A stretch of 64,000 bases of DNA from an uncultured Pelagibacteraceae bacterium (lineage in GTDB: Bacteria > Pseudomonadota > Alphaproteobacteria > Pelagibacterales > Pelagibacteraceae), in contig CACBYE010000006.1 of NCBI GenBank assembly GCA_902543375.1, forward strand, positions 1 through 64,000, read 5' to 3'. Below, one piece after another: positions 42,857-64,000 of the stretch. Below the pieces are notes generated by a model. It was not told the origin of the DNA, ran no database searches, and was given only the letters and a program-made list of their open reading frames with translations. A program made the position numbers and the translations under genes. Numbering within the stretch: the stretch's first letter is position 1; every line of letters begins with the position of its first letter.

Positions 42857-43261
42857 ATGAGTAAAATGCAAAATCTCTCAAAAAATCAACAAATTATTTT
42901 TGATTTAATCGATAAATCTCCAGAACCTCTAAAAGCTTATTCAATACTATTTAATGTGCAAAAAAGAGGTATTAAAGCCCCATTACAAGTTTATAGAGCA
43001 TTAGACAAATTAGTTGAAATTGGAAAAATTCATAAAATTGAAAGCAGAAACGCTTTCATTGCCTGTCAAAATTCAAGTTGTCAAATCTCAAAAGCTACAG
43101 CTTTTTCAATATGTGAAAGTTGTGAAAAAGTTACAGAGATTAATAATTCTAATCTTTCAAAATATCTTACAGGGTTTAAAGATAAAAATGGAATGAAATA
43201 TAACAAATATAACCTTGAATTTTTTGGATTATGCAAAAAATGTGTATCTAAAAAAAGTTAA
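42857..43261 (+). CDS. zur: Fur-family transcriptional regulator, probable Zur
   Basis: Fur-like winged helix (APLQVYRALDKLVEIGKIHKIESRNAFIAC), CxxC motifs, genomic context with znu genes. Confidence 0.87.
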   Translation: MSKMQNLSKNQQIIFDLIDKSPEPLKAYSILFNVQKRGIKAPLQVYRALDKLVEIGKIHKIESRNAFIACQNSSCQISKATAFSICESCEKVTEINNSNLSKYLTGFKDKNGMKYNKYNLEFFGLCKKCVSKKS

Positions 43262-48246: not shown

Positions 48247-49758
48247 TTATTTTGAATTATTTGAATAAATTACTCTTGGCTCTAAAAATAATTCTCTAGC
48301 AAGAGCTTTAAATCTTTTGGTAACTTGTTTTGAGATTATTTCTTGATGTTGTGATGGAATTTTTAAAAATACAGCATTACCTCTTTTATACAATTTAAAC
48401 TCTTCAAGAAATATCGTAGATATCGAGGTCAATGATTGTGAAAATCTCAATGCTGCACCAACTTGTTTGCTTGAAAAAATTTCATTATTATTCAAAAAAG
48501 TTAAATACTCGATCTTTGGATTATACTTGATACTACAGTACCGCCAATAGCATGACAAAGCTAATTGTATTCTTTCTTTATGAGTCAATCTAAGTAAAGG
48601 AGTATTTATCGTTTCTTGAAATACCAATTCAGCTTTTTGAAATGCTCCCAATCCCCAATCCATATGACTTAATACACATGCCAGATATAATAATTTCTTA
48701 TTAAAGTGCTCATTACCTTCAAAAACTGGATGAATAAAATCATAATATTTTTTATAATTTGACCCTAAATCACCTCTTTTTTGCGCAACCTTCTCAATTG
48801 CTTTGTAAAAAATTTCAGATTCTTTTACATCTTTAAAATGGTCAATTGATAAAGATCCTTCACGCAAACCACTGATAGAACAAATAATTTTTTTTGGATT
48901 TGAAACTTTCATAATTTCATCAAGTATAATACAGCTATAAGGTAAATATGGTGTTCTAGATTTTGAAATATACTCAACTGTTTTAAGTTTGGATTTATTA
49001 AAAGAAGAAACTTTTTCAACAAACTTAGATAAAACATTATTATCAATACTATATTGATGAATTATGTGTACTGGATGATTATTTTGAAAAAGATGTAATT
49101 TAAATAATGCACGCCAAGTACCTCCAACTAAATATAAATTATTAAATTTCTTTTTTGAGAGCCATTTTTCATCTCTTAATAATTTTTTAATATATTTTGC
49201 TAAATTTCTTTTTTTAACTATAGGATTATTCATTAATCTTAAAACACCAACAGGTAATGAGGTTTTATTGGTTACTATATTGTTTTCAACTCGGGCTAAC
49301 TCCAAGCTACCACCGCCAAGGTCAGCAACTAATCCATCAACATTTTCAAAACCTATTTTTACTCCCTCAGCTGTGCATTTAGCTTCTTCTTCGCCTGATA
49401 ATATATTAATCTTAGTTTTAAAAAGTTTTTCAACTTCATCAATAAAAGGTTTTGTATCAGTTGCTTCTCTCATAACTGCTGTTGCAATAATCTTTAGATT
49501 TGTGATTTTTGAAACATTTAAAATTTCAGAAAATCTTTTTAAAACTTTTAAAGCATATTCAGTACCAGATCTGTGAAGTTTTCTCGATTTATCTAAATTT
49601 TTTCCAAGTTCACAAACTGCTTTTTCATTAAAAAAAGGCACACGAGAAGAACTGAAATCTTCATAAATTAGCATTCTTATAGAGTTTGATCCAATGTCTA
49701 TTATAGCTAATTTTGCCTGATTTAATTTTAAACTATTTTTACTTTTAATTACTTCCAC
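48247..49758 (-). CDS. ppx: Exopolyphosphatase / Ppx-GppA family
   Basis: LAIIDIGSNSIRMLIYE; VADLGGGSLELARV; followed by HD-like domain. Confidence 0.92.
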   Translation of the reverse strand: MEVIKSKNSLKLNQAKLAIIDIGSNSIRMLIYEDFSSSRVPFFNEKAVCELGKNLDKSRKLHRSGTEYALKVLKRFSEILNVSKITNLKIIATAVMREATDTKPFIDEVEKLFKTKINILSGEEEAKCTAEGVKIGFENVDGLVADLGGGSLELARVENNIVTNKTSLPVGVLRLMNNPIVKKRNLAKYIKKLLRDEKWLSKKKFNNLYLVGGTWRALFKLHLFQNNHPVHIIHQYSIDNNVLSKFVEKVSSFNKSKLKTVEYISKSRTPYLPYSCIILDEIMKVSNPKKIICSISGLREGSLSIDHFKDVKESEIFYKAIEKVAQKRGDLGSNYKKYYDFIHPVFEGNEHFNKKLLYLACVLSHMDWGLGAFQKAELVFQETINTPLLRLTHKERIQLALSCYWRYCSIKYNPKIEYLTFLNNNEIFSSKQVGAALRFSQSLTSISTIFLEEFKLYKRGNAVFLKIPSQHQEIISKQVTKRFKALARELFLEPRVIYSNNSK

Positions 49759-51901
49759 TTTTAATCAATCTTAAGTGCAGTTGTTTAGGCTGCATTCTTA
49801 GTTTAGCTTTACCTCTTCCAGATAAGCTCGGATTATTCATAAAATATTCATGAGCTGAAAAGGAATCGCTCTTACTATATTTAATTTTTTTATAATTACC
49901 ATCAGCTTCAAGTTCCCAGCTCTGATTAGTATCAAGATAATTTGCCAACATTATTTGATCTAAGATCTGTTCATGAACAGTCTCATTTTCAATTGGGACT
50001 AGAAGTTCTACCCTTCGATTTAAATTTCTTGGCATTAAATCAGCTGACGAAATATATACTTTTGCATTTCTATTAGGCATTTTTTTTGTGCCATTACTAA
50101 AGCAGTAAATTCTAGAATGCTCTAAAAATCTTCCTATGATACTTTTTACAAATATGTTTTCTGATCTATCTTTTACTCCTGGTCTTAAACAACAAACACC
50201 CCTTACAAATAAATGAATTTTTACACCAGCATTCGAAGCTTCATAAAATTTATCAATAATTTCTGGATCTACTAAAGAGTTCATTTTTGCCCAAATAGCT
50301 GCAAATTTTCCATTTTTAGAATTTTTAATTTCAGCATCAATATTTTCATTTAAGGTTTGTCTCATATTTACTGGCGAAATAGAAATTTTATTTAAATTTT
50401 TTGGTTTTGCGTATCCTGTTACATAATTGAAAAACTTTTCAACATCTGATGCCATTTTCTTATCACAACTAAATAAAGACAAATCAGTATAAATTTTAGC
50501 ATTTACTGGATGATAATTGCCAGTTCCTAAATGAAAATAAGTTTGTATTTTACCCTGTTCTCTTCTTAAAACTAATGATGATTTTGCATGAGTTTTATAT
50601 TTAGCAAAACCATAAACAATTTGAACACCTACTTTTTCTAAACTTCTTGATAGTTGAATATTAGCTTCCTCATCAAATCTAGCTTTAATTTCAATTAAAG
50701 CGGTAACTGTTTTTCCGTTTTCTGCAGCTGTTATTAAAGCTTTAACAATAGGTGAGTCTAGAGTTGTTCTATATAGAGTTTGTTTTATAGCTATAACTTT
50801 TTTATCATTTGCTGCTTGGTTTAAAAATTCAATTACTGAGTCAAATGTTTCAAAAGGATGATGAACAACTAAATCTTTCTTTTTAATAGTTTCAAAAAAA
50901 TTATCATTATATTCTTTTAATCTTTCAACTTCTCTAGGTGTAAAATGTTTAAATCTTAATTTTGGATTTTTTACTTTACATATTTGATCTATATCTTGAA
51001 TTCCAACAAGGCCAGCAACATCATAAATATAGTCAGGATTTATATCTAATTTATTAGTTATAAATCTTATCAATTCGTTATCACTATTTTCAAGAACCTC
51101 TAAACGAACAATATCACCCGTTCTACGTCTTTTTAAAGCCAATTCAAAAGATCTAACCAAATCTTCTGCTTCCTCTTGAATCTCTACATCGCTGTCTCTT
51201 ATTACTCTAAAAATCATTTTCTTTTCTAAATCATGATCTGGAAAAATTTCATTAGCAAAAAAACTTATTACATCATCTAGAATCACAAATTTCTTATGAT
51301 TTTTTGAAGACTCAATTTCAATAAATCTAGATAATGCTTTTGGTATTACTATTATTGAGTTTAAAATCCTTTTTTTATTTTTTTTTCTTAGCTTCATTAC
51401 AATTGCTCTTCCTTGATTGATTATAAATGGAAATGGATGTGCAGGATCAATTGCTGATGGTGTTAATAAAGGGTAAATCTCTTCTTTAAATATTTCTAAA
51501 AGTTTTTTTTTATCCTTAGTATTTAAATTAACTGGTTTAACTAAATTGATATTATTTTTTTTTAATTCCATAATCAGTTGAATAAAAATTTTGTTCTGTT
51601 TTTTTAATAGATTCTTAGTTTCAAGCACTACCTCATCCATTTGCTCTTCAGGTGTCAAACCATCAGAGCTTAGTGAGTCAACTTCTTGTTTTATTTGACT
51701 ATATAACCCAGCTACACGGACCATAAAAAATTCATCTAGATTAGACCCAGCAATTGATAAAAACTTTACTCTTTCATATAGAGGATTTTCGATATTTTGC
51801 GCCTCTAAAAGTACTCTATCGTTGAATTTTAACCAAGAAAGCTCTCTATTTATATATTTAGATTTCAACTCTTCTTTATGTTGTTTTTTTAAAGCAGTCA
51901 T
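49745..51901 (-). CDS. ppk1: Polyphosphate kinase 1
   Basis: YINRELSWLKFNDRVLLEA; HHPFETFDSVIEFLNQAA; YFHLGTGNYHPVNAKIYTDLSLFSCD. Confidence 0.95.
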   Translation of the reverse strand: MTALKKQHKEELKSKYINRELSWLKFNDRVLLEAQNIENPLYERVKFLSIAGSNLDEFFMVRVAGLYSQIKQEVDSLSSDGLTPEEQMDEVVLETKNLLKKQNKIFIQLIMELKKNNINLVKPVNLNTKDKKKLLEIFKEEIYPLLTPSAIDPAHPFPFIINQGRAIVMKLRKKNKKRILNSIIVIPKALSRFIEIESSKNHKKFVILDDVISFFANEIFPDHDLEKKMIFRVIRDSDVEIQEEAEDLVRSFELALKRRRTGDIVRLEVLENSDNELIRFITNKLDINPDYIYDVAGLVGIQDIDQICKVKNPKLRFKHFTPREVERLKEYNDNFFETIKKKDLVVHHPFETFDSVIEFLNQAANDKKVIAIKQTLYRTTLDSPIVKALITAAENGKTVTALIEIKARFDEEANIQLSRSLEKVGVQIVYGFAKYKTHAKSSLVLRREQGKIQTYFHLGTGNYHPVNAKIYTDLSLFSCDKKMASDVEKFFNYVTGYAKPKNLNKISISPVNMRQTLNENIDAEIKNSKNGKFAAIWAKMNSLVDPEIIDKFYEASNAGVKIHLFVRGVCCLRPGVKDRSENIFVKSIIGRFLEHSRIYCFSNGTKKMPNRNAKVYISSADLMPRNLNRRVELLVPIENETVHEQILDQIMLANYLDTNQSWELEADGNYKKIKYSKSDSFSAHEYFMNNPSLSGRGKAKLRMQPKQLHLRLIKSGSN

Positions 51902-51914
51902 ATATTTAGATTTT

Positions 51915-52439
51915 ATGTATCAATTATACGTCATGAGACACGCAAAATCTAGTTGGGATGATTTAAGTATTAATGATTTTGATAGACCACTTACTAAAAG
52001 AGGCAAGAAAAATGCAAAAATGATTTGTGAATTTTTTGTTAAAAAAAAATTTGAATTTGATTATGCATTAATTTCATCATCAAAAAGAACAAAAAAAACT
52101 TTTCAAATTTTATCCAAGAAAATTAATAAGCCAAAAAAAGTTAATTTTTCAAAAGATTTATATTTAGTTGATGAGAATGCAATTGTAAAAAAAATTAAAG
52201 AAATATCCAGTGAATATAAATCAATTTTGATTATAAACCATGAACCATCAGTGAAAAATTTAGTACGAAATCTTACAAAAAATCATAATACGAATAATTT
52301 TAAACTAATGAATTATAAATTCCCAACAGCAGCATTTGCAAAAATTGAGTTTGATATTAAATCCTGGAATGAAGTTGAGAAAAAGGGAGTATTAAAAAAA
52401 TTTATAAGACCCAAAGATCTTCAAGATTCTAAAGAATAA
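51915..52439 (+). CDS. SixA-like phosphohistidine phosphatase
   Basis: MYQLYVMRHAKSSWDDLSINDFDRPLTKRGKKNAK; RHG motif; ORF-track start (51822) lies inside ppk1, the ATG at 51915 fits better. Confidence 0.9.
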   Translation: MYQLYVMRHAKSSWDDLSINDFDRPLTKRGKKNAKMICEFFVKKKFEFDYALISSSKRTKKTFQILSKKINKPKKVNFSKDLYLVDENAIVKKIKEISSEYKSILIINHEPSVKNLVRNLTKNHNTNNFKLMNYKFPTAAFAKIEFDIKSWNEVEKKGVLKKFIRPKDLQDSKE

Positions 52440-53104
52440 CCAGCTGATCTTACTGTTCTAATTAAAGGTTTTGTATTTTGTATGTTAATTGCTTGTCTTA
52501 ATCTTCTAATATGAACATCAACTGTTCTAGACTCAACATATATATTTTCTCCCCAAACATTGTTTAAGAGTTGTTCTCTTGAATAAACTCTTTTTGGATT
52601 TTTGATAAAAAAATCTAAGAGTTTAAATTCAGTTGGACCCAAAGTAATTTCTTTATCTTTTCTATAAACTCTTTTTGTAATCCGATCTATTTTTAAATCA
52701 GTAAATTCTACAATGTCTGATGATGATTGAGGTTTAGATCTTCTCAATAAAGATTTAATTCTAGCATTCAATTCTTTTTGACTAAAAGGTTTAGTTACAT
52801 AATCATCTGCACCTGTATCAAATGCTTTTAATTTGTCTTCTTCCTCTCCTTTTGCAGTTAACATAATGACAGGAATATCATTAAACTTATTATCTTTTTT
52901 TAAGTTTTTACAAATTTCAACACCAGATAATTCTGGTAACATCCAATCCATTAATATTAAATCTGGCTGTTTTAATTTTATTTGTTTAAGAGCATCTTCT
53001 CCATTTTCTGAATGACTGACTTTATAACCTTCTTTTTCAAGATTGTACTTTAACAAACTAACAATTGATGCTTCATCTTCAGCTATGAAAACATGAGCTG
53101 ACAT
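52421..53104 (-). CDS. phoB: Phosphate regulon response regulator
   Basis: Receiver domain (LILMDWMLPELSG, MLTAKGEEEDKLKAFDTGADDYVTKPF) + OmpR-type wHTH; adjacent to phoU/pst. Confidence 0.94.
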   Translation of the reverse strand: MSAHVFIAEDEASIVSLLKYNLEKEGYKVSHSENGEDALKQIKLKQPDLILMDWMLPELSGVEICKNLKKDNKFNDIPVIMLTAKGEEEDKLKAFDTGADDYVTKPFSQKELNARIKSLLRRSKPQSSSDIVEFTDLKIDRITKRVYRKDKEITLGPTEFKLLDFFIKNPKRVYSREQLLNNVWGENIYVESRTVDVHIRRLRQAINIQNTKPLIRTVRSAGYSLES

Positions 53105-53107
53105 AAA

Positions 53108-53815
53108 TCATTTTTCTCCGGTTACAATTGGCTCTGTTCCCTTGGGTCTATCACCTTCTAAATATTCGCCTTTAACTAAATAATAAACTTGTTCTGCAAC
53201 ATTTGTAGTATGATCACCAATACGCTCTATGTTTTTAGTTACAAACAATAAATGGGTTCCATCTTCTAAATTTTTTTCATTTTCTTTAAGATATTTTATA
53301 ACTTCTTGCATACAAAGATTTGTTAGATCATCTATTTGCTCATCACCTTCCCAAACATTTACTGCCATTGGCGCAGATCTTTCTAGATAAGCATCTAATG
53401 TTGATTTTAATTGTTTTTGAACATTGGTAGATACTCTATTCAATGAGTCTACCAAGTTCTTTGGAAGATTTTCGTTAAGCAAAAGTGTTCTCTTGGATAT
53501 ATTTTTTGCTAAATCACCTATTCTTTCTAAATCTGAAGACATCTTCAAAGCCGTTACTGTCTCTCTTAAATCAATTGCCATAGGTTGTCTTAAAGCAATT
53601 AAATTCACAACTTGCTGTTCAATTAAAGTCTCATATTTATCTATTTTTTCATCTTCTTGAATAACAGCTTCTGCAATATTATTATCTCTTGTTGTAATGG
53701 CTTGAATTGCTTTACCTAAAGAATCTTCACATGCACTTCCCATTTTAATTATATTAGCATTAAGATTTTTTAGTTCTTCTTCGTAAGATTTGACTGTATG
53801 TGGTGCTTCAGACAT
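53108..53815 (-). CDS. phoU: Phosphate signalling protein PhoU
   Basis: Duplicated helical PhoU motifs (MSSDLERIGDLAKNI; KNIERIGDHTTNVAE). Confidence 0.95.
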   Translation of the reverse strand: MSEAPHTVKSYEEELKNLNANIIKMGSACEDSLGKAIQAITTRDNNIAEAVIQEDEKIDKYETLIEQQVVNLIALRQPMAIDLRETVTALKMSSDLERIGDLAKNISKRTLLLNENLPKNLVDSLNRVSTNVQKQLKSTLDAYLERSAPMAVNVWEGDEQIDDLTNLCMQEVIKYLKENEKNLEDGTHLLFVTKNIERIGDHTTNVAEQVYYLVKGEYLEGDRPKGTEPIVTGEK

Positions 53816-54570
53816 TATCCAAACCTCCCTGTTATATAATCTTGCGTTTTTTTATTATCAGGATTCTTAAATATTTTATCAGTAGATCCATGCTCAATCA
53901 ATTGTCCTAAATGAAAAAAACCTGTATTTTGAGAAACACGTGCTGCTTGAGCCATAGAATGAGTTACAATTATTATTGTGTGCTCTTTTTTTAACTCATC
54001 AATCAATTCTTCAATTTGTGCTGTTGCTATTGGATCTAATGCTGAACAAGGTTCATCCATTAATATAACTTCAGGTCTTACAGAAATCGCTCTAGCAATA
54101 CAAAGTCTTTGCTGTTGTCCTCCAGATAATCCAGTTCCAGGTTCATGCAACCTATCTTTTACCTCTTCCCATAGTGCAGCCTTTTTCAAACTAGTTTCAA
54201 CAATTTCATCCATTTCTTGTTTTGATTGAGCCATACCATGAATTGTTGGACCATAAGACACATTTTCATATAAAGTTTTTGGGAAAGGATTGGGTTTTTG
54301 AAAAACCATACCAATTTTTTCTCTTAGTCTTACGACATCACAACTTTTATCATTGATATTAAAATCATTAATTAAAATTTCTCCTTTAACACTACAGATA
54401 TCAATTACATCATTCATTCTATTAAGACATCTTAGGAAAGTTGATTTACCACAACCAGATGGACCAATTAATGCCGTTACTTGATTTTCCTCAATATCTA
54501 AACTTATATTAAAGAGCGCTTGTTTTTTTCCATAAAAAACATCAACATCTTTTGCTTTAATCTTTATCAT
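53815..54570 (-). CDS. pstB: Phosphate ABC transporter ATP-binding protein
   Basis: [36 protein letters not shown]; start at 54570 avoids overlap with pstA (ORF track 54591). Confidence 0.95.
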
Positions 54571-54571
54571 T

Positions 54572-55840
54572 TTAACTCCATTTTTTCTCAAACTTATGTC
54601 TTATTATTTGGGCAAATAAATTCATTATTATTAAAAAGCCAAGTAAGACCATTATACATGCCGAAACTTTTTCTACAAATCCCCTTTCAGCACTTTCAGC
54701 CCAAATATAAATTTGAACTGGTAAGCTTGCAGCAGGATCCATGGGTGATCCAGGTATCGTGTTAACAAAAGCAACCATTCCAATTAAAATTAAGGGTGCA
54801 GTTTCTCCTAAAGCTTGAGCTAAACCAATTATTGTTCCTGATAACGTGCCAGGCATAGAAAGAGGAACTGTATGATGCATTGTGGTTTGCATTCGACTTG
54901 CTCCCATAGCAAGTGCTGCCTCTCTTATACTTGGTGGAACTGCTTTTAAAGATGCTCTAGCAGCTATAATTATTGTTGGTAAGGTCATTAAGGACAAAGT
55001 GATACCTCCAACTAATGGGGTAGACCTTGGTAATTGAAATATAGCCAATAAAACTCCTAACCCTAATAGACCAAAAACTATAGATGGAACCGCTGCTAAG
55101 TTGTTTATATTAACTTCAATAAAATCAGTAAATCTATTTTTAGGGGCAAATTCTTCAAGATAGATTGCAGCTAGAACCGCAACAGGAAAAGCTATCATTA
55201 AACAAACAAGTATAGAAAAAATTGAGCCCATAAATGAACTTGCTATTCCAGCTAGCTCAGCTTCTCTTGAGTCAGCATTTGTAAAAAAACTTATATTAAA
55301 TTTACTTTCAACCTTACCATTTGCAACAAGTTGATCAAAAATTTTTAATTGATAATCGCTTACTCTTCTTTGGTCTTCAGGTAAATCTCTTGGATAATTT
55401 CCTTTAAAGACTTGGTCTAAATCATCTGAAGCAGTTAGATAAACTTCCTTTGTTTTTCCTATTAAATTAGGGTCATTTAAAAGTTCATTTTTAATTTCTT
55501 TTTCAAAAAAATAAGACACCATTCTCTTCAATTCATTTTCTTGATCTTCATTGGCGTTTGGATCTAAATCAGCCATTGATTTTAATGCTATATCGTAATA
55601 ATCAGCGTCCTGTAAATCTTCTTTAGAAGGATTTTGGTCTAACATCATTAATTCAGCATCGAAAGTTACTGGAACAATAAGCCATGTTTTTTGAAAAGCT
55701 GAATAGCCAGTTGAAAAAATTTTAAAAATAAAGATTGTTAAAAATAAAAGTGCCATAAAAATTGCACTCAGACCGTATAAGCGAAATCGCTGTTCAGCTT
55801 TATATCTTTTATTTAATAATTGTTCTTTATTTTTATTCAT
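54572..55840 (-). CDS. pstA: Phosphate ABC transporter permease PstA, with N-terminal extra domain
   Basis: [47 protein letters not shown]; extended N-terminal region. Confidence 0.93.
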
Positions 55841-57218
55841 ATTTTTCTCTATATTTTTTAACTACTCTCAAGGCCACAATATTTAAACAAAGTGTTACTA
55901 AAAATAATGACATACCTAAAGCAAAAGCAGCTTGCGTTTTTGGGTCGCCAAAAGCTTGGTCACCAATTAGAATAACTACAATTTGAGCTGTAATCGTTGA
56001 AGTAGACTCTAAAGGATTTAAAGTTAAATTAGCAGCTAAACCAGAGGCCATAACAACTATCATTGTTTCTCCAATAGCTCTTGAAACACCAAGTAAAATA
56101 GATCCAACTATCCCCGGCAATGCCGCGGGAAAAATAACTCTCTTAATTGTTTCTGATTTAGTTGCTCCCATAGCGTAACTTCCATCTCTTAAACTTTGAG
56201 GCACACTTGTAATGACATCGTCACTTAAACTTGAAATAAATGGTATAATCATAATACCCATTACCCCTCCTGCTGCTAAAGCACTTTCAGCTGAAACTTC
56301 AAGACCCATTGAAGTTCCTAATTCTTTCAAAAATGGTCCAACAGTTAGGGCAGCAAAAAAACCATAAACAACTGTTGGTATACCAGCTAAAATTTCAATT
56401 AATGGTTTTGCATATTGTCTAACTTTAGTTGATGCATATTCAGCTAAATAAATTCCACTCATTAATCCAATTGGGATAGCAACGCACATAGCAATAAATG
56501 CAATAAAAAAAGTACCTGCAAAAATAGGGACTGCTCCAAAAGTATCTGAATACATTGTCGGATCTAAAGCCTCAGAAGAATCTCTAACAAAAGCTTTTGC
56601 TGGATACCAGTGAGTTCCAAAGACAAAATCAAATAATGGAATTACTTTAAAAAAATCTATAGTTTGAAATATAAGTGAGAAAACTATTCCAACAGTAGTT
56701 AATATTGCAGCTAAAGAAGCTGTAAATAAAACTGCGTTCAAAAATTTTTCAACTGGTTCTCTTGTTCTAGAATTAGATGAAATTCTTTTATACGCATAAG
56801 CAACAGAGGCAATAATTGCAGATAATACTATAACAACTTTTGAACTTTGAGCTATTGATCGAAGACTTAAATATTTTTCAGCTGAAGCTTCAATAAAAGG
56901 TGTAATTTCTCCAGTGAATTGCCCTCGAGACAATGCTTTTGATTTTTCGTATAATAAATTTAATTCATCATCAAGATAACCTTGATTTGAATAATCACTT
57001 AAGATTAATAGTTTTACAATTGTGGGCTCAAAAATTGCCCATAATGAAAAAATTATAAAGGCTGGTATTGCACACCAGATTGCAAGATAATAACCATAAA
57101 ACTGTGGTAATGCGGTTAATCTTTTTTTTGTAGATTGAATTGTATATGCTTTTTTGCGTCCAAAATAATAGCTTGTGAAACCTAGAAGAACAATAAATGT
57201 AAATAATATTAAGTTCAC
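55833..57218 (-). CDS. pstC: Phosphate ABC transporter permease PstC
   Basis: EILAGIPTVVYGFFAALTVGP; GSYAMGATKSETIKRVIFPAALPGIVGSILLGVSRAIGETM. Confidence 0.93.
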   Translation of the reverse strand: MNLILFTFIVLLGFTSYYFGRKKAYTIQSTKKRLTALPQFYGYYLAIWCAIPAFIIFSLWAIFEPTIVKLLILSDYSNQGYLDDELNLLYEKSKALSRGQFTGEITPFIEASAEKYLSLRSIAQSSKVVIVLSAIIASVAYAYKRISSNSRTREPVEKFLNAVLFTASLAAILTTVGIVFSLIFQTIDFFKVIPLFDFVFGTHWYPAKAFVRDSSEALDPTMYSDTFGAVPIFAGTFFIAFIAMCVAIPIGLMSGIYLAEYASTKVRQYAKPLIEILAGIPTVVYGFFAALTVGPFLKELGTSMGLEVSAESALAAGGVMGIMIIPFISSLSDDVITSVPQSLRDGSYAMGATKSETIKRVIFPAALPGIVGSILLGVSRAIGETMIVVMASGLAANLTLNPLESTSTITAQIVVILIGDQAFGDPKTQAAFALGMSLFLVTLCLNIVALRVVKKYREKYE

Positions 57219-57309: not shown

Positions 57310-58341
57310 TTAATTACCCATAGCAACTAGCTTCGTAGCATTAGTTCTAGTTGTTTTATACAACTTAGAGTCTAATGGCACTAAACCAATGTCTGCTAAG
57401 TAACCACCTTTTCCAATAGCTTTCTTAGTTGTGAATTCTTTCACAAACTCATGTAAGCCTGGAATTACTCCAACGTGTGCTTTTTTCACGTAGAAGAATA
57501 AAGGTCTAGCAACAGCATAACTGTAGTCTTGAATAGACTTTAATGACGGTTGTCCACCATCAATACTTGCTGCTTGCAATTTATCTTTTGCAGCTAAGAA
57601 ATAACTGAAACCAAAGAAACCAAACATTTCTTTATCTTGAGTTAACTTTTGGATGATTAAACTATCGTTTTCTCCAACTTCAATAGCAGCACCATCTTCT
57701 CTGTAAAGTTTTTGAGGTTTTTTGTATTTTTTATTTCCAGCTTCAAAACCAGCTTTATAAAGAGCTTTAGCTTCTTTAGTCATACCTTTTTTCATTACTA
57801 AAGAATTCCAAGCATCTCTAGTTCCTGATGTTCCTGGTGGGATCATCACTGAAATTTTTTGTTTTGGTAAGCTAGGGTCAATTTGGTCCCAAGTTTTATA
57901 AATATTTGGAACTAATTTACCATCAACAACTGTATGAGCAGCAAGTGCTAAATATAATTGTTCTTTAGTAAAGTTTACTGGTTTTGCATCTTTGCTGTAA
58001 GCTAATGTAATACCATCGTTACCAATTACGATCTCAACGATATCATTAACACCATTTTTCTTACATAGAGCTTTTTCTTTATCTTTCATAGCTCTTGATG
58101 CATTTGTAATATCTGGATGTTGTTCACCTACACCAGCACAGAATAGTTTAGCTCCACCACCAGTACCAGTAGACTCGATTACAGGAGTTTTAAATCCTGA
58201 ACCACCAAATCTTTCAGCAACAACTGTTGCATAAGGGAATACTGTAGAAGAACCAACTATCTTAATTTGATCTCTTGCTTGAGCAACAGTTGCAATTGAA
58301 AGTGCAACTAAAGAAGCAATTACTATAGTTAGTTTTTTCAT
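57310..58341 (-). CDS. pstS: Phosphate ABC transporter substrate-binding protein
   Basis: Signal peptide, QIKIVGSSTVFPYATVVAERFG; PPGTSGTRDAWNSLV; SD AAAGGA. Confidence 0.94.
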   Translation of the reverse strand: MKKLTIVIASLVALSIATVAQARDQIKIVGSSTVFPYATVVAERFGGSGFKTPVIESTGTGGGAKLFCAGVGEQHPDITNASRAMKDKEKALCKKNGVNDIVEIVIGNDGITLAYSKDAKPVNFTKEQLYLALAAHTVVDGKLVPNIYKTWDQIDPSLPKQKISVMIPPGTSGTRDAWNSLVMKKGMTKEAKALYKAGFEAGNKKYKKPQKLYREDGAAIEVGENDSLIIQKLTQDKEMFGFFGFSYFLAAKDKLQAASIDGGQPSLKSIQDYSYAVARPLFFYVKKAHVGVIPGLHEFVKEFTTKKAIGKGGYLADIGLVPLDSKLYKTTRTNATKLVAMGN

Positions 58342-58409: not shown

Positions 58410-58438
58410 ATTACAGAATTGTTACACTTTTGTTAAAA
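58410..58438 (-). promoter_or_regulatory. Pho-box-like triple repeat upstream of pstS
   Basis: Minus strand TTTTAAC-AAAA-GTGTAAC-AATT-CTGTAAT: three 7-mers with 11-bp phasing. Confidence 0.8.
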
Positions 58439-58448
58439 AGGTAACTTT

Positions 58449-59057
58449 TTAGTTGTATTTTTTTGATATAATTATTTGATCAATATCAGTTTCTAAGCCA
58501 CCAATACATGAAACAGGGTTTACCTGTTCATTAAGAGCTAGTTCTTTGGTTGGACGTAAAGTTATTTCTAGTTTTACTAAGTTTACTAATTCCTCTCTAA
58601 TTTCTTCATCATATCTCCAGCTTGGCCATGAACTTGGGGTTGAAAATATAGAGGTTAAATAGCTTGTAGCCATAGTATATCTATAATTACTCAAATTTTC
58701 ATTCCTCAATAAAAAATCTCTTACAGAATTAAAAATATTCCTACATCTAAAAGAATCTGAAAAATAATTTTCCTTCTTGAGATTTCTATTCATAGGAACA
58801 GAAACAATTAAATCAATTGAATTTTTAGAATACGAGGTAACTACGTCTGTATAAAATTCAGCTTCAGTAACTTCTAAATGATCTTTAATAGAAGGATATG
58901 AAGTTTTCAAATCTGCCTCTAATCTAAAAATTCCAATATCAAAAACTGTAAGTTGCTGATTTCTTAATAATGTTGTGATATCTTTAGAAAAAACACTTGT
59001 TGTTATAGAGCTTAATAAAAAAGCAAAAATCAAAATATTTTTGAATATTTTAACCAT
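58449..59057 (-). CDS. Secreted protein of unknown function within the pst-pho locus
   Basis: 202 aa, N-terminal signal peptide (FKNILIFAFLLSSITTSVFS), no family recognised. Confidence 0.8.
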   Translation of the reverse strand: MVKIFKNILIFAFLLSSITTSVFSKDITTLLRNQQLTVFDIGIFRLEADLKTSYPSIKDHLEVTEAEFYTDVVTSYSKNSIDLIVSVPMNRNLKKENYFSDSFRCRNIFNSVRDFLLRNENLSNYRYTMATSYLTSIFSTPSSWPSWRYDEEIREELVNLVKLEITLRPTKELALNEQVNPVSCIGGLETDIDQIIISKKYN

Positions 59058-59091: not shown

Positions 59092-59109
59092 AGTAAAGAA
59101 TTGTTAAAA
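59092..59109 (-). promoter_or_regulatory. Weak Pho-box-like repeat upstream of the unknown secreted protein
   Basis: Minus strand TTTTAAC-AATT-CTTTACT, 11-bp phasing; second half degenerate. Confidence 0.35.
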
Positions 59110-59148: not shown

Positions 59149-60294
59149 TTAAGTTTTCGCTGGTAAATAAATTTGAATTTCAGTTCCTTGGTTTTCCTCA
59201 CTTAGAATCTCATAGTGTCCACGATGTTGAGTAACTATATGTTTAACAATAGCTAATCCTAAACCGGTTCCACCAACCTTGTTACTTTGTTCAAGATCTA
59301 CCCTAAAAAATCTTTCTGTAATTCTAGAAATATATCTTTGAGGAATGCCAACACCTTCGTCTTTAATACTGATCATAAAATTTTTTTCTAACAATTTACC
59401 GTCGCTAATTTTGCTTGATATAAAAATAGACTTATTTTCCTTTGAATACTTAATTGCATTATCTAAAAGATTAGAAAAAACAGTTTGTAAATTTTTTTCA
59501 TCTCCAATAACAACTGTTGGATTGGCGAGAGATAAATTAATATTTAATTTCTTTCTTTTTAAAATAATCTCAAAATTACTGATGATTGTTTTGAAAAGAT
59601 CATTTATATCAACTAAAAAGTTTGGCCTTATGTGTTCTTCTAATTCAATTCTTGTGAGTATTAAAAGATCATTAATTAAATTTTCCATTCTATTTGATTG
59701 ATCAGTCATTATTTTCATAAATTTTTTTTTAGCCTTTTCATCATCTGACGCTGGGCCCTCAATTGTTTCTAGTGATCCTTTGATTGCCATTAAAGGTGTT
59801 CTTAATTCATGGCTTACATTTGCTACAAAATCAGTTTTAAATTTTTGTGCTTTTGTAATTTCAGTAAAATCTTTTAAAAATAACACAACGGAGTCTGGTT
59901 CAGTAAACAAATGAGTTGGGCCAGGAATAATATAAATTTTATAGAATTGATATGATGGGAGGTCTATTTCAACATCGATATTTTTTGTTTTATTTTCTAC
60001 GATAGCTTTTTCAATATTTTCTATTAATTCTGGTTTTCGAATTATAGAAGATATGTTTTTATCAATTAAATTACTTCCAAATCTTTTTAATGCACTTGGA
60101 TTGGCATATTTAATTATGTTAAATTTATTTAATGCAAAAAATTGATCTTCAAGCTCATCAATAATTACTCTTTTTGTTTTTTCTTCTCTTTTATTAACTA
60201 TTGTAGCGGTATTTATTGATTTATTTTTTTTTTGATTAAGTAAATAGAGAAGATAAACTATCACAACTATAAGTAGAATGACGAAATATTCCAT
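59149..60294 (-). CDS. phoR: Phosphate regulon sensor histidine kinase
   Basis: N-terminal TM, PAS-like, FVANVSHELRTPLMAIKGSLE (H box), FRVDLEQSNKVGGTGLGLAIVKHIV. Confidence 0.92.
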   Translation of the reverse strand: MEYFVILLIVVIVYLLYLLNQKKNKSINTATIVNKREEKTKRVIIDELEDQFFALNKFNIIKYANPSALKRFGSNLIDKNISSIIRKPELIENIEKAIVENKTKNIDVEIDLPSYQFYKIYIIPGPTHLFTEPDSVVLFLKDFTEITKAQKFKTDFVANVSHELRTPLMAIKGSLETIEGPASDDEKAKKKFMKIMTDQSNRMENLINDLLILTRIELEEHIRPNFLVDINDLFKTIISNFEIILKRKKLNINLSLANPTVVIGDEKNLQTVFSNLLDNAIKYSKENKSIFISSKISDGKLLEKNFMISIKDEGVGIPQRYISRITERFFRVDLEQSNKVGGTGLGLAIVKHIVTQHRGHYEILSEENQGTEIQIYLPAKT

Positions 60295-60359: not shown

Positions 60360-61367
60360 CTAATGATTTGGTGAAATATTGTTAAAAAATATTTTTGCTG
60401 TTTCTTCCCAAGTGAATTTTTTTGCAAATTCAAGACAATCATTTCTGTCAACTTTTAAAGCTTTTTGTGCTGATACTTTAAGATCATCATCTAAACAATT
60501 TATTTTGGATCCTTCAAATATATCTTTAGGGCCTGGAACAGGATACGCAGCAACAGGTGTTCCGCAATTTAAAGCTTCTGTAACTACAATTCCAAATGTA
60601 TCTGTTTTACTAGGGAAAACAAAAACATCAGAGGATGCAAAATGTGATGCTAATTCACCATTTGTTTTTTCTCCTAAAAAAATATCTTTAGGGAATTCTT
60701 TTTTCAATTTTTTTAAATCAGGTCCTTTTCCTATAATTATTTTTGTACCTTCTAAATCACATTCTAAAAAAGCTCTTATGTTTTTTTCAACTGCAACTCT
60801 TCCAACATAAATCCAAATAGGTCTTTTATGAGGTAAATCAATTTTTTTAGGGTTCTTAAAAGCTCCATGATTTCCTCCTCTAGTCCAAGTAATCATTTTA
60901 TTGTCATCTATACCTATATCGATTAATTCTTTTCTCATAGACTCTGTAGTTACTAAAATTCTCTCAGCCTTATTATGAAAATTTGCTAAGAATTTTTCAG
61001 CCCATTTTGCTGGTATAATAGGAAAGTAAAGTTTTAGATATTTATCAAATCTTGTATGGAAACTCGTAGTAAACTTTAGATTATTTTTTAAACAATATCT
61101 TCTTGCCATAGTGCCTATCGGGCCTTCGGTAGCGATATGAATTGCATCTGGATTGATTTTCTTTATTAAATTACCAACTCTTGGCCATACATTTATAGAC
61201 AACTTAATTTCATTATATTTCGGCATCGGAAAAGTAAAAAATAAGTCAGGTGTAATATATTCTATTCTATGACCTTGTTCTTTTAATACATTACCTGTTT
61301 CATGTAAGGTTCTTACGACACCATTTACTTGTGGAAAATATGCATCTGTAGCAATTAAAATTTTCAT
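60360..61367 (-). CDS. GT4 glycosyltransferase, candidate diacylglycerol glycosyltransferase (Agt-like)
   Basis: ATDAYFPQVNGVVRTLHETGNVLKEQGH; SFHTRFDKYLKLYFP; VFPSKTDTFGIVVTEALNCGTPVAAYPVPGPKD; 3 nt from PlcP-like gene. Confidence 0.85.
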   Translation of the reverse strand: MKILIATDAYFPQVNGVVRTLHETGNVLKEQGHRIEYITPDLFFTFPMPKYNEIKLSINVWPRVGNLIKKINPDAIHIATEGPIGTMARRYCLKNNLKFTTSFHTRFDKYLKLYFPIIPAKWAEKFLANFHNKAERILVTTESMRKELIDIGIDDNKMITWTRGGNHGAFKNPKKIDLPHKRPIWIYVGRVAVEKNIRAFLECDLEGTKIIIGKGPDLKKLKKEFPKDIFLGEKTNGELASHFASSDVFVFPSKTDTFGIVVTEALNCGTPVAAYPVPGPKDIFEGSKINCLDDDLKVSAQKALKVDRNDCLEFAKKFTWEETAKIFFNNISPNH

Positions 61368-61370
61368 TAA

Positions 61371-62183
61371 TTATGAAGCTTTTTTTAATTCTTCAGTTTT
61401 AATTGGTTTAATTATTTCTTTATCGTCTAAATATTGTTCTCTTATTTTGTCCCAATATAATATTTCAAAACTACCATCATAATTTTCGGCTAATGCGGTA
61501 CAAGATTCAACCCAGTCTCCACAATTTAAATAATTGACCCCATTAAAGTCTCTATCCTCAGCATGATGGATGTGGCCACAAATAATTCCATCAAATTTTT
61601 TTCTTTTTGCATAATCTGAAAGTGTTTTTTCATATTCACCAATATATTTAACTGCATTTTTGACTTTATACTTTAAAAATTTTGCAAGAGACCAATATTC
61701 TTTTCCTCTCAATCTTCTAAAAAAGTTAATTATTACATTTAATTTTAATAGTAAATTATAGGCTATTGATCCAAGTTTAGATAACCATTTAGCATGTTTC
61801 ATAACACCATCCCAAGCATCACCATGAACAACAACATATTTTTTTCCTGCATTTGTTTCATGAATAACTCTATTAACCATATGGATGTCACCAAAATGCA
61901 TTGGAATAAATTTTCTTAACATTTCGTCATGATTACCCATTATGTAGAAAACTTTGGTACCATGTCTAGCTTTTCTTAAAATTTTTTGGATTACATCATT
62001 ATGTTCTTGAGGCCAAAAAAAACTTTTTTGCATTTCCCAGATATCTATAATGTCCCCTACAAGATAAAGATTTTCGGATCTTGAGTTTTTAAAAAACTCT
62101 AAAAGTTTTTTCGCCTGACAACCCTTGGTACCTAAATGAACATCAGAAATAAATATACTTTTATATTTAAGTAAATTAGGCAT
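61371..62183 (-). CDS. Metallophosphoesterase, candidate PlcP-type phospholipase C (often annotated UDP-2,3-diacylglucosamine diphosphatase)
   Basis: FISDVHLGTKGCQAKKLLEFF; LVGDIIDIWEM; IMGNHDEMLRK; VVHGDAWD; IICGHIHHAE. Confidence 0.87.
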   Translation of the reverse strand: MPNLLKYKSIFISDVHLGTKGCQAKKLLEFFKNSRSENLYLVGDIIDIWEMQKSFFWPQEHNDVIQKILRKARHGTKVFYIMGNHDEMLRKFIPMHFGDIHMVNRVIHETNAGKKYVVVHGDAWDGVMKHAKWLSKLGSIAYNLLLKLNVIINFFRRLRGKEYWSLAKFLKYKVKNAVKYIGEYEKTLSDYAKRKKFDGIICGHIHHAEDRDFNGVNYLNCGDWVESCTALAENYDGSFEILYWDKIREQYLDDKEIIKPIKTEELKKAS

Positions 62184-62196
62184 TTAAAGACCTATA

Positions 62197-62214
62197 TTTT
62201 AATACAACTGTAAC
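62197..62214 (+). promoter_or_regulatory. Pho-box-like repeat for the lipid-kinase gene
   Basis: TTTTAAT-ACAA-CTGTAAC on + strand. Confidence 0.6.
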
Positions 62215-62245
62215 ACGAATCATGTACTTCTTATTTCATTTGAAT

Positions 62246-62263
62246 GTTACAAATTTGTTAAAA
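62246..62263 (-). promoter_or_regulatory. Pho-box-like repeat for the PlcP-like gene
   Basis: Minus strand TTTTAAC-AAAT-TTGTAAC, close match to pstS TTTTAAC-AAAA-GTGTAAC. Confidence 0.68.
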
Positions 62264-62281
62264 ATTTTTTAAGGATTAATT

Positions 62282-63166
62282 ATGTTATGTTGTTTGATTT
62301 ATAATTTGAATTCTTCCTCTGGAAGAAAATCTATATTCATAAATAGGATTTTATCTAAGTTAAAAGAGAATATTTCTGTAGACTACTTTGAAACAAAAAC
62401 AATAAATCAAGCTAAGAAAATTTTCAAAAATTTTAATCAAAAAAATTATGATCGACTAATAGTAGCTGGTGGTGATGGTTCAGTTTCTTTTGCAATTAAT
62501 GAATTAATTAAAAATAATTTTGATTTTAAAGACAATTTTGCCATAGGTTATATTCCTGCTGGCACTGCAAATTTGCTTCAAGCTGAATTATCAATGAATA
62601 AAAAAGTTGATGATATAGTAAATGTGTTGGTTTCTAATAATTATAAATCCTCTAATCTTGTAAAAATTAACGATAATTATTTCTTTTTAATGGCTGGTAT
62701 AGGATGGGATGCAAAAATTGTTCATTCAATTAATTCAAAAATTAAAAAGATTCTAGGTAAAATTATATTTGGTATCAAAGGTTTTCAATATTTCTTGTTT
62801 ATGAATAATAAAAAGTTAAATGTCACTTTTGATGGTCAATTTTATCAAGCAGACTGGATATTATCTTCAAATACCAAATATTACGCTGGACATCATAAAA
62901 TAAATAAAACAAATATTTTTGAAGAGAAATTAGTCACCTATATATTTAAAGATTTGACTAGGATTAGTTTATTATATTCAATTTTTTTAATAATTCTTAA
63001 TGGTGATTTAAGTAAAAATAAAAATGTTATTACTACTTATGCACAAAACATTACAATTGATGGAAATGATTTGATACCTGTTCAAATTGATGGAGATAAT
63101 TTTGGTTCATATAAAAAAATTCATTTAAATCTATCAAATAAAAAAGTGAATTTTCTTGTAAAATAA
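62282..63166 (+). CDS. Diacylglycerol/lipid kinase family protein
   Basis: LIVAGGDGSVSFAINEL; GYIPAGTANLLQAEL DAGK catalytic motifs. Confidence 0.9.
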   Translation: MLCCLIYNLNSSSGRKSIFINRILSKLKENISVDYFETKTINQAKKIFKNFNQKNYDRLIVAGGDGSVSFAINELIKNNFDFKDNFAIGYIPAGTANLLQAELSMNKKVDDIVNVLVSNNYKSSNLVKINDNYFFLMAGIGWDAKIVHSINSKIKKILGKIIFGIKGFQYFLFMNNKKLNVTFDGQFYQADWILSSNTKYYAGHHKINKTNIFEEKLVTYIFKDLTRISLLYSIFLIILNGDLSKNKNVITTYAQNITIDGNDLIPVQIDGDNFGSYKKIHLNLSNKKVNFLVK

Positions 63167-64000
63167 TTATTTTATTCTTCCATAAATATCTTGGTATCTA
63201 ACTATATCAGTTTCTTTTAAAATTGAGCCTACTTGTGCTTCAATTATTTTTACTGGTTTTTTATATGGGTTTTCTATTCTATGGATTGCACCTAATGGTA
63301 TAAAAATAGTTTCATCAGGTTTCATGGTAAAATATTTTTTATCTAACGTAATTTTAGGTTTACCTTGGGTTACTACCCAGTGTTCAGCTCTATGATGATG
63401 TTTCTGAAGACTTAATATACCTTTAGGTTTTACATATAGTTCTTTTATCAAGAATTCTTTACCATTAAATAAATTAACATAACTACCCCAAGGTTTATGG
63501 AATACATTTTTCTTTTTATAATAATGTTTCTTATTTCTTCCGTACATTTTACAGATTTCTTTCCAAGATCCTAAATCAGACCAAGGAATATCCAACTTGA
63601 TAGCATTTATATCTTTAGTTTTTTCTAATATTGCATAGTCAAAAGACTTAGCTGTTGCTTTGGTGAATGCTTGTTTGTTTAAATAATACACGTTACTTTT
63701 ATATTTTGCTTTTATTAAAGCGTTATTGCAGTTTCGATAAATATTTGGCTGGTATTTCTTAAAATTATTAATTATTGAGTCTTTTCTCAAATAAAACATT
63801 CCAGAATTCCAATAACCTTTTTTACTAATTATTTGTTTAGCTTTAGCCACTTTTGGTTTTTCTACAAATCTAGATACTTTGTTATTTCTGGTTAAAAAAT
63901 AACCAAATTCACTAGAGGGCATTTTGGGTTTAATCCCAAAGATAAAAATATTGTTTTGAGTAAGTTTCTTTTGATTTTTTTTGATAGCTTTATTAAATAA
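63167..64000 (-). CDS. Mannose-1-phosphate guanylyltransferase / mannose-6-phosphate isomerase, partial, runs off right edge
   Basis: RFVEKP; GYWNSGMFYLRKD; W.DLGSW; cupin part PWGSYVNL...LSLQKHHHRAEHWVV; frame open upstream of the ORF-track Met (63922) to the window end. Confidence 0.92.
   Translation of the reverse strand, partial: LFNKAIKKNQKKLTQNNIFIFGIKPKMPSSEFGYFLTRNNKVSRFVEKPKVAKAKQIISKKGYWNSGMFYLRKDSIINNFKKYQPNIYRNCNNALIKAKYKSNVYYLNKQAFTKATAKSFDYAILEKTKDINAIKLDIPWSDLGSWKEICKMYGRNKKHYYKKKNVFHKPWGSYVNLFNGKEFLIKELYVKPKGILSLQKHHHRAEHWVVTQGKPKITLDKKYFTMKPDETIFIPLGAIHRIENPYKKPVKIIEAQVGSILKETDIVRYQDIYGRIK

Follow-up and report, generated by a model that had tools for sequence, protein, structure and literature searches.

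The 98-bp spacer between a plcP-like gene (start at 62183, minus strand) and a lipid kinase gene (start at 62282, plus strand) carries two opposed repeats that resemble Pho boxes, and we propose that it is a bidirectional, PhoB-controlled promoter that would serve plcP-agt on one side and a diacylglycerol (DAG) kinase on the other, from promoters that would compete. We give this reading, taken as a whole, a probability of about two in three. The spacer sites probably turn on both plcP and the kinase under phosphate starvation. In low phosphate, PhoB on the minus-strand box would switch on plcP-agt, and possibly the downstream phoR-pst genes as well, and PhoB on the plus-strand box would switch on the kinase. 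PlcP would convert phospholipids to DAG, and Agt would convert DAG to glycolipid. The kinase would convert surplus DAG to phosphatidic acid, which would limit the build-up of DAG and maintain a supply for the remaining phospholipids. Whichever promoter wins the competition would set the balance between degrading and rebuilding phospholipids.

SAR11 bacteria are among the most abundant bacteria in the ocean, and exchanging phospholipids for glycolipids is a way to live on little phosphorus. If our reading is true, then the current model of remodelling misses a kinase that rephosphorylates DAG and that co-occurs with PlcP throughout our sample of the genus.

Below, "the window" is the entire stretch of 64,000 nucleotides that was analyzed. 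It belongs to a SAR11 genome, the assembly of which has 1.07 Mb in 20 contigs, and statements about the whole genome are from pattern and family searches. Coordinates are in Table 1.

Table 1. Features of the window (Pho boxes and gene functions are predictions; G163 is a related genome).
Feature	Position	Strand	Remarks
Divergent spacer plcP/kinase	62184–62281	.	98 bp; ortholog alignment
plcP-facing Pho box, TTTTAAC-AAAT-TTGTAAC	62246–62263	-	62 bp before plcP ATG; ancestral
Kinase-facing Pho box, TTTTAAT-ACAA-CTGTAAC	62197–62214	+	67 bp before kinase ATG; derived, one clade
DAGK_cat (PF00781) lipid kinase, 294 aa, DgkB-like	62282–63166	+	Sole PF00781 match in genome
plcP-like metallophosphoesterase, 270 aa	61371–62183	-	PF00149; 80% identical to G163 homologue
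agt-like GT4 glycosyltransferase, 335 aa	60360–61367	-	81% identical to G163 homologue
phoR-like sensor kinase	59149–60294	-	TIGR02966 280 bits, under cut-off 334
202-aa protein between phoR and pstS	58449–59057	-	No Pfam match
pstS Pho box, three heptamers, 11-bp period	58410–58438	-	Conserved across genus
pstS	57310–58341	-
pstC, pstA, pstB, phoU	53108–57218	-
phoB	52421–53104	-	TIGR02154 above cut-off

The gene neighborhood and related systems

On the minus strand, the genes are in the order plcP, agt, phoR, the 202-aa unknown, pstS, pstC, pstA, pstB, phoU, and phoB, so that PhoB, PhoU, and PstABC are all encoded in the same window as the spacer. The kinase gene and plcP are transcribed divergently, and on its other side the kinase gene converges with a manC-like gene. 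The original prediction had named PlcP and Agt as the SAR11 pair that replaces phospholipids with glycolipids, and this agrees both with the order of the genes here, plcP and then agt, and with the established functions of the two SAR11 proteins (PMC4796936). Pho boxes near plcP clusters were reported in the same study, which places the plcP-agt type in SAR11 HTCC7211 (type 2 clusters). The published SAR11 cluster matches ours in having plcP-agt order, adjoining Pho genes, and a Pho box upstream of plcP. It differs in that the main text of PMC4796936 has no kinase, whereas we see the kinase as an invariant, divergent neighbor that, in one clade, has a second box facing it.

In Pseudomonas putida, DagK is listed with PlcP among the phosphate-responsive proteins for lipid remodelling (PMC5082522), so there too a DAG kinase is grouped with PlcP. 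In the part of that report cited here, no divergent spacer is described, the family of DagK is not stated, and the linked genes named for surrogate lipids are for ornithine lipids (OlsA and OlsB), instead of the Agt glycolipids. The literature already contains both elements: Pho boxes close to plcP in SAR11 and, in Pseudomonas, a Pho-responsive DagK. We found no paper on the SAR11 kinase in the open-licence literature that we searched.

The 202-aa protein recurs in two other plcP genomes that we examined, and we saw it in none of the three examined loci that lack plcP. Reading by eye, we also saw a long polyphosphate kinase-like open reading frame near phoB (49745–51901, minus strand).

The spacer repeats resemble the Pho box of pstS

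In E. coli, the Pho box consists of 7-4-7 direct repeats that are bound by PhoB. The original prediction described two repeats of this form in the spacer, in opposite orientations, and noted their resemblance to a repeat upstream of pstS; both are present at the positions it gave, as is the pstS repeat. Because the spacer sites must not be judged by their own consensus, we built a scoring matrix from the pstS promoters of relatives (including genomes that lack plcP) and excluded spacer sequences. In these promoters, the repeat is conserved as TTKTAAC-AAAA-STKTAAC. The window's own pstS site is TTTTAAC-AAAA-GTGTAAC (58438–58421), and a third heptamer, CTGTAAT, extends it. Like the E. coli box, the SAR11 box has two heptamers with an 11-bp period and lies upstream of pstS, but the SAR11 consensus is TTKTAAC-N4-STKTAAC and the E. 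coli repeats are CTGTCAT.

When the 127,966 positions in the window (both strands) were ranked with this matrix, the pstS site was first and the spacer sites were directly behind it: the plus box was second (17.6 bits) and the minus box was third (15.5 bits). The resemblance to the pstS repeat was thus borne out by the scan that the original prediction had proposed, which supports the identification of both repeats as Pho boxes by an independent comparison. If the matrix is built solely from the distant pstS boxes, those of relatives without plcP, then the spacer sites drop to ranks 6 and 23, and the top site is at 42971–42988, inside a coding open reading frame; this site is fourth with the full matrix. 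With at most one mismatch, there are six matches in the 1.07-Mb genome: the two spacer sites, the pstS site, and three within coding sequences.

We considered whether only plcP is under Pho control, with the plus-strand repeat being a by-product of AT-richness and shared ancestry. Matches to a loose consensus (two mismatches) number 9 in the window, against 9.5 expected; this lack of enrichment fits the explanation and is also why we dropped the loose scan in favor of the pstS-derived matrix; furthermore, most of the plus-box sequences are from close relatives. Yet the plus box ranks second of the 127,966 positions with a matrix that is blind to the spacer, and a clade whose kinases are 73–76% identical to the window's retains it in a form nearer to the consensus (TTGTAAC-ACAA-CTGTAAC). 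The plus box is also constrained: diversity in the box heptamers is 0.035, as compared to 0.121 at the third codon positions of the kinase (P = 0.0008, resampling), and the heptamers are less diverse than random spacer columns as well (P = 0.04). We therefore consider it very unlikely that the plus-strand repeat is a by-product.

A weaker Pho-box-like site, TTTTAACAATTCTTTACT, lies between phoR and the gene for the 202-aa protein (59092–59109, minus strand) and is sixth in the ranking by the pstS matrix. Separately, GANTC is rare in the window (97 found versus 179 expected), yet it recurs in the Pho promoters, at 62217, 58381, and 58399. GAATC is nearly invariant among the spacer orthologues, and the pstS promoters retain GANTC sites with varying N. 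GcrA is present.

The kinase is inseparable from plcP

In our sample of 151 genomes from the genus, plcP is present in 45. In exactly these 45, the kinase is present too, whole or as a fragment at the edge of a contig. There was one further strong match to the kinase, in G069, which is truncated at the end of its contig. (We disregarded two other kinase hits, with E = 4e-4 and 9e-4, because both are weak and lie in far longer frames.) In every locus of the genus sample that holds both genes, they are adjacent and divergent. The layout is the same in two sister genera, where the kinase is about 50% identical. These observations support the view that the kinase is inseparable from plcP and belongs to the lipid-remodelling module. 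In a second family of the order, plcP is present and no PF00781 match was above the cut-off.

We noticed some variation around this locus. In one member of another genus (L260, from G200), the divergent neighbor of plcP is a 223-aa protein, probably of the membrane (by eye), and a Pho-box-like site points toward it. L270 (G381) has a PF00781 kinase that is distantly related (32% identical); it is divergent to phoR and does not adjoin plcP. In L265 (G297), the block from plcP through the spacer to the kinase is 60–87% identical to 61000–63600 of the window, while the flanks are nearly identical to it (94% on the agt side and 95–98% on the manC side), as would result from an exchange of the block by homologous recombination.

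The kinase-facing box arose in one clade

All lineages of the genus have the plcP-facing box, and so do the sister genera; its sequence is often TTTTAA[CT]-N4-CTGTAAC, although it scores low in a few (5.7–8.8 bits in L041, L262, and L266). Judging from these sequences, this box is ancestral for the family as a whole. In contrast, the kinase-facing box is confined to one clade, in which the kinases are 73–100% identical to the window's. All 80 of the named relatives that we retrieved (the nearest are single-cell genomes of uncultured Pelagibacteraceae) lie within this clade, and both boxes are at fixed spacing in 80/80 of them. The plus box is 67 bp from the kinase ATG across the clade, except in L266, where it is 64 bp away. 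On the kinase tree, the plus box maps to a single branch (support 100/100). No plus box was found in the other clades of the genus, including in G163 (1,456,888 bp; presumably HTCC7211), or in the two sister genera, and the kinase still adjoins plcP in these. This distribution indicates a single, recent gain of the kinase-facing box, in one branch of the group.

Because the plus box is absent from the other lineages, the divergent pair of Pho boxes is a single derived gain rather than something that the module has conserved. The original prediction, in which the kinase was a divergent member of the Pho regulon, holds up for the plus-box clade, on the motif and its spacing, but not for the module in general; similarly, its expectation that the motif would be conserved in orthologous spacers is correct for the minus box, across three genera, and fails for the plus box outside of one clade. 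The absence of the plus box from several lineages that have both kinase and plcP also counts against our preferred reading, as the function of the module does not require this box.

The start of the kinase gene differs as well. Where the plus box is lacking, the minus box is in most lineages followed by the kinase ATG after 0–6 bp (18–19 bp in L049 and L267). The plus-box clade has 15–18 bp at this place, and its main clade has an AAGGA-like sequence there. We infer that the kinase underwent a change of promoter in the plus-box clade. Pho control of the kinase is probably a lineage-specific rewiring, because other lineages lack a kinase-facing box and often have the kinase start codon right beside the box of plcP. 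At an earlier stage, prior to the gain of the plus box, PhoB may have blocked the kinase rather than activating it.

Could PhoB still block the kinase in the window's lineage? In such a scheme, PhoB would activate plcP and shut off the kinase, the two would be expressed at opposite times, and the plus box would be a roadblock or competition site instead of an activator. Two points favor this scheme: in most of the lineages that lack the plus box, the kinase start, at 0–6 bp from the minus box, would be covered by PhoB, and PlcP and the kinase are expected to catalyze opposite reactions. But in the window's lineage, the plus box is correctly oriented and at a fixed 67 bp from the ATG, and the minus box is followed by an 18-bp stretch in which the main clade has an AAGGA-like ribosome site; also, a directional box would be superfluous for blocking alone. 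We view continued blocking as unlikely.

Our preferred reading, activation in both directions, makes a prediction from the geometry of the spacer. The plus box is nearer to plcP and the minus box is nearer to the kinase, so that the boxes face one another with 31 bp between them. In E. coli-like spacing, the -10 element is about 10 bp past the box. With such spacing, each start site would be just upstream of the other box, and PhoB on one box would occupy roughly positions +9 to +27 of the opposing transcript. Since the boxes are face to face and each is downstream of the other's predicted start, the promoters would overlap, and competition between them is predicted. The predicted -10 hexamers are weak, so the assignment of start sites is uncertain.

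A more elaborate history is possible, and we offer it tentatively: in one SAR11 clade, a new Pho box might have turned a PhoB-silenced kinase into a PhoB-activated one with competing promoters, and plcP, spacer, and kinase might form a cassette that is exchanged between strains. Strains with and without the plus box amount to a natural experiment on whether the rebuilding of phospholipids is coupled or opposed to their degradation, and genomes of both types are publicly available.

The family and substrate of the kinase

The kinase matches PF00781 with 75.4 bits (cut-off 23.6; E = 4e-21). A solved structure of DgkB (PDB 2qv7) matches residues 6–285 (E = 9e-21), and although the two are remote in sequence, this nearly full-length match fixes the fold family. 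The GGDG motif is shared with DgkB, and GGDGS is invariant among the aligned kinases of the genus. The kinase has IFD/E at the position of DgkB's DDG. Searches of its own genome found no further PF00781 protein and no PF01219 protein.

DAG is a plausible substrate, because DgkB is the closest solved relative, no other DAG kinase family was found in the genome, and DgkA is found at the same spot in some plcP-less relatives. Three points run counter to our preferred reading. First, making phosphatidic acid spends phosphate exactly when it is scarce. Second, DgkB-type kinases have a glutamate as the base catalyst, in DGE; the sister genera have DGE as well, but the genus has DGD. Third, the kinase scores below the cut-off for TIGR00147 (YegS/Rv2252/BmrU; 99.1 bits versus 118.65).

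The last two points would also fit a kinase that is under Pho control but acts on another lipid, such as a glycolipid or a lipid alcohol, to make an anionic phospho-lipid, with no recycling of DAG. DAGK_cat proteins include kinases of several different lipids. Given that the best solved relative is DgkB, that the product of the linked enzyme is DAG, and that some plcP-less relatives have DgkA in the same place, after manC, we think that another substrate is doubtful, and we prefer DAG.

In some plcP-less genomes of the genus, dgkA (PF01219) is directly after manC (L216:6722–7051 and L247–L251). We asked if DgkA and the kinase exclude each other, but with six DgkA genomes, none of which has plcP, about two overlaps would be expected, so this is not significant. 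In G012, DgkA sits between manC and phoR, where the kinase-plcP-agt block stands elsewhere. The presence of DgkA at the kinase locus in plcP-less relatives fits a role for the kinase in phosphorylating DAG, without proving it.
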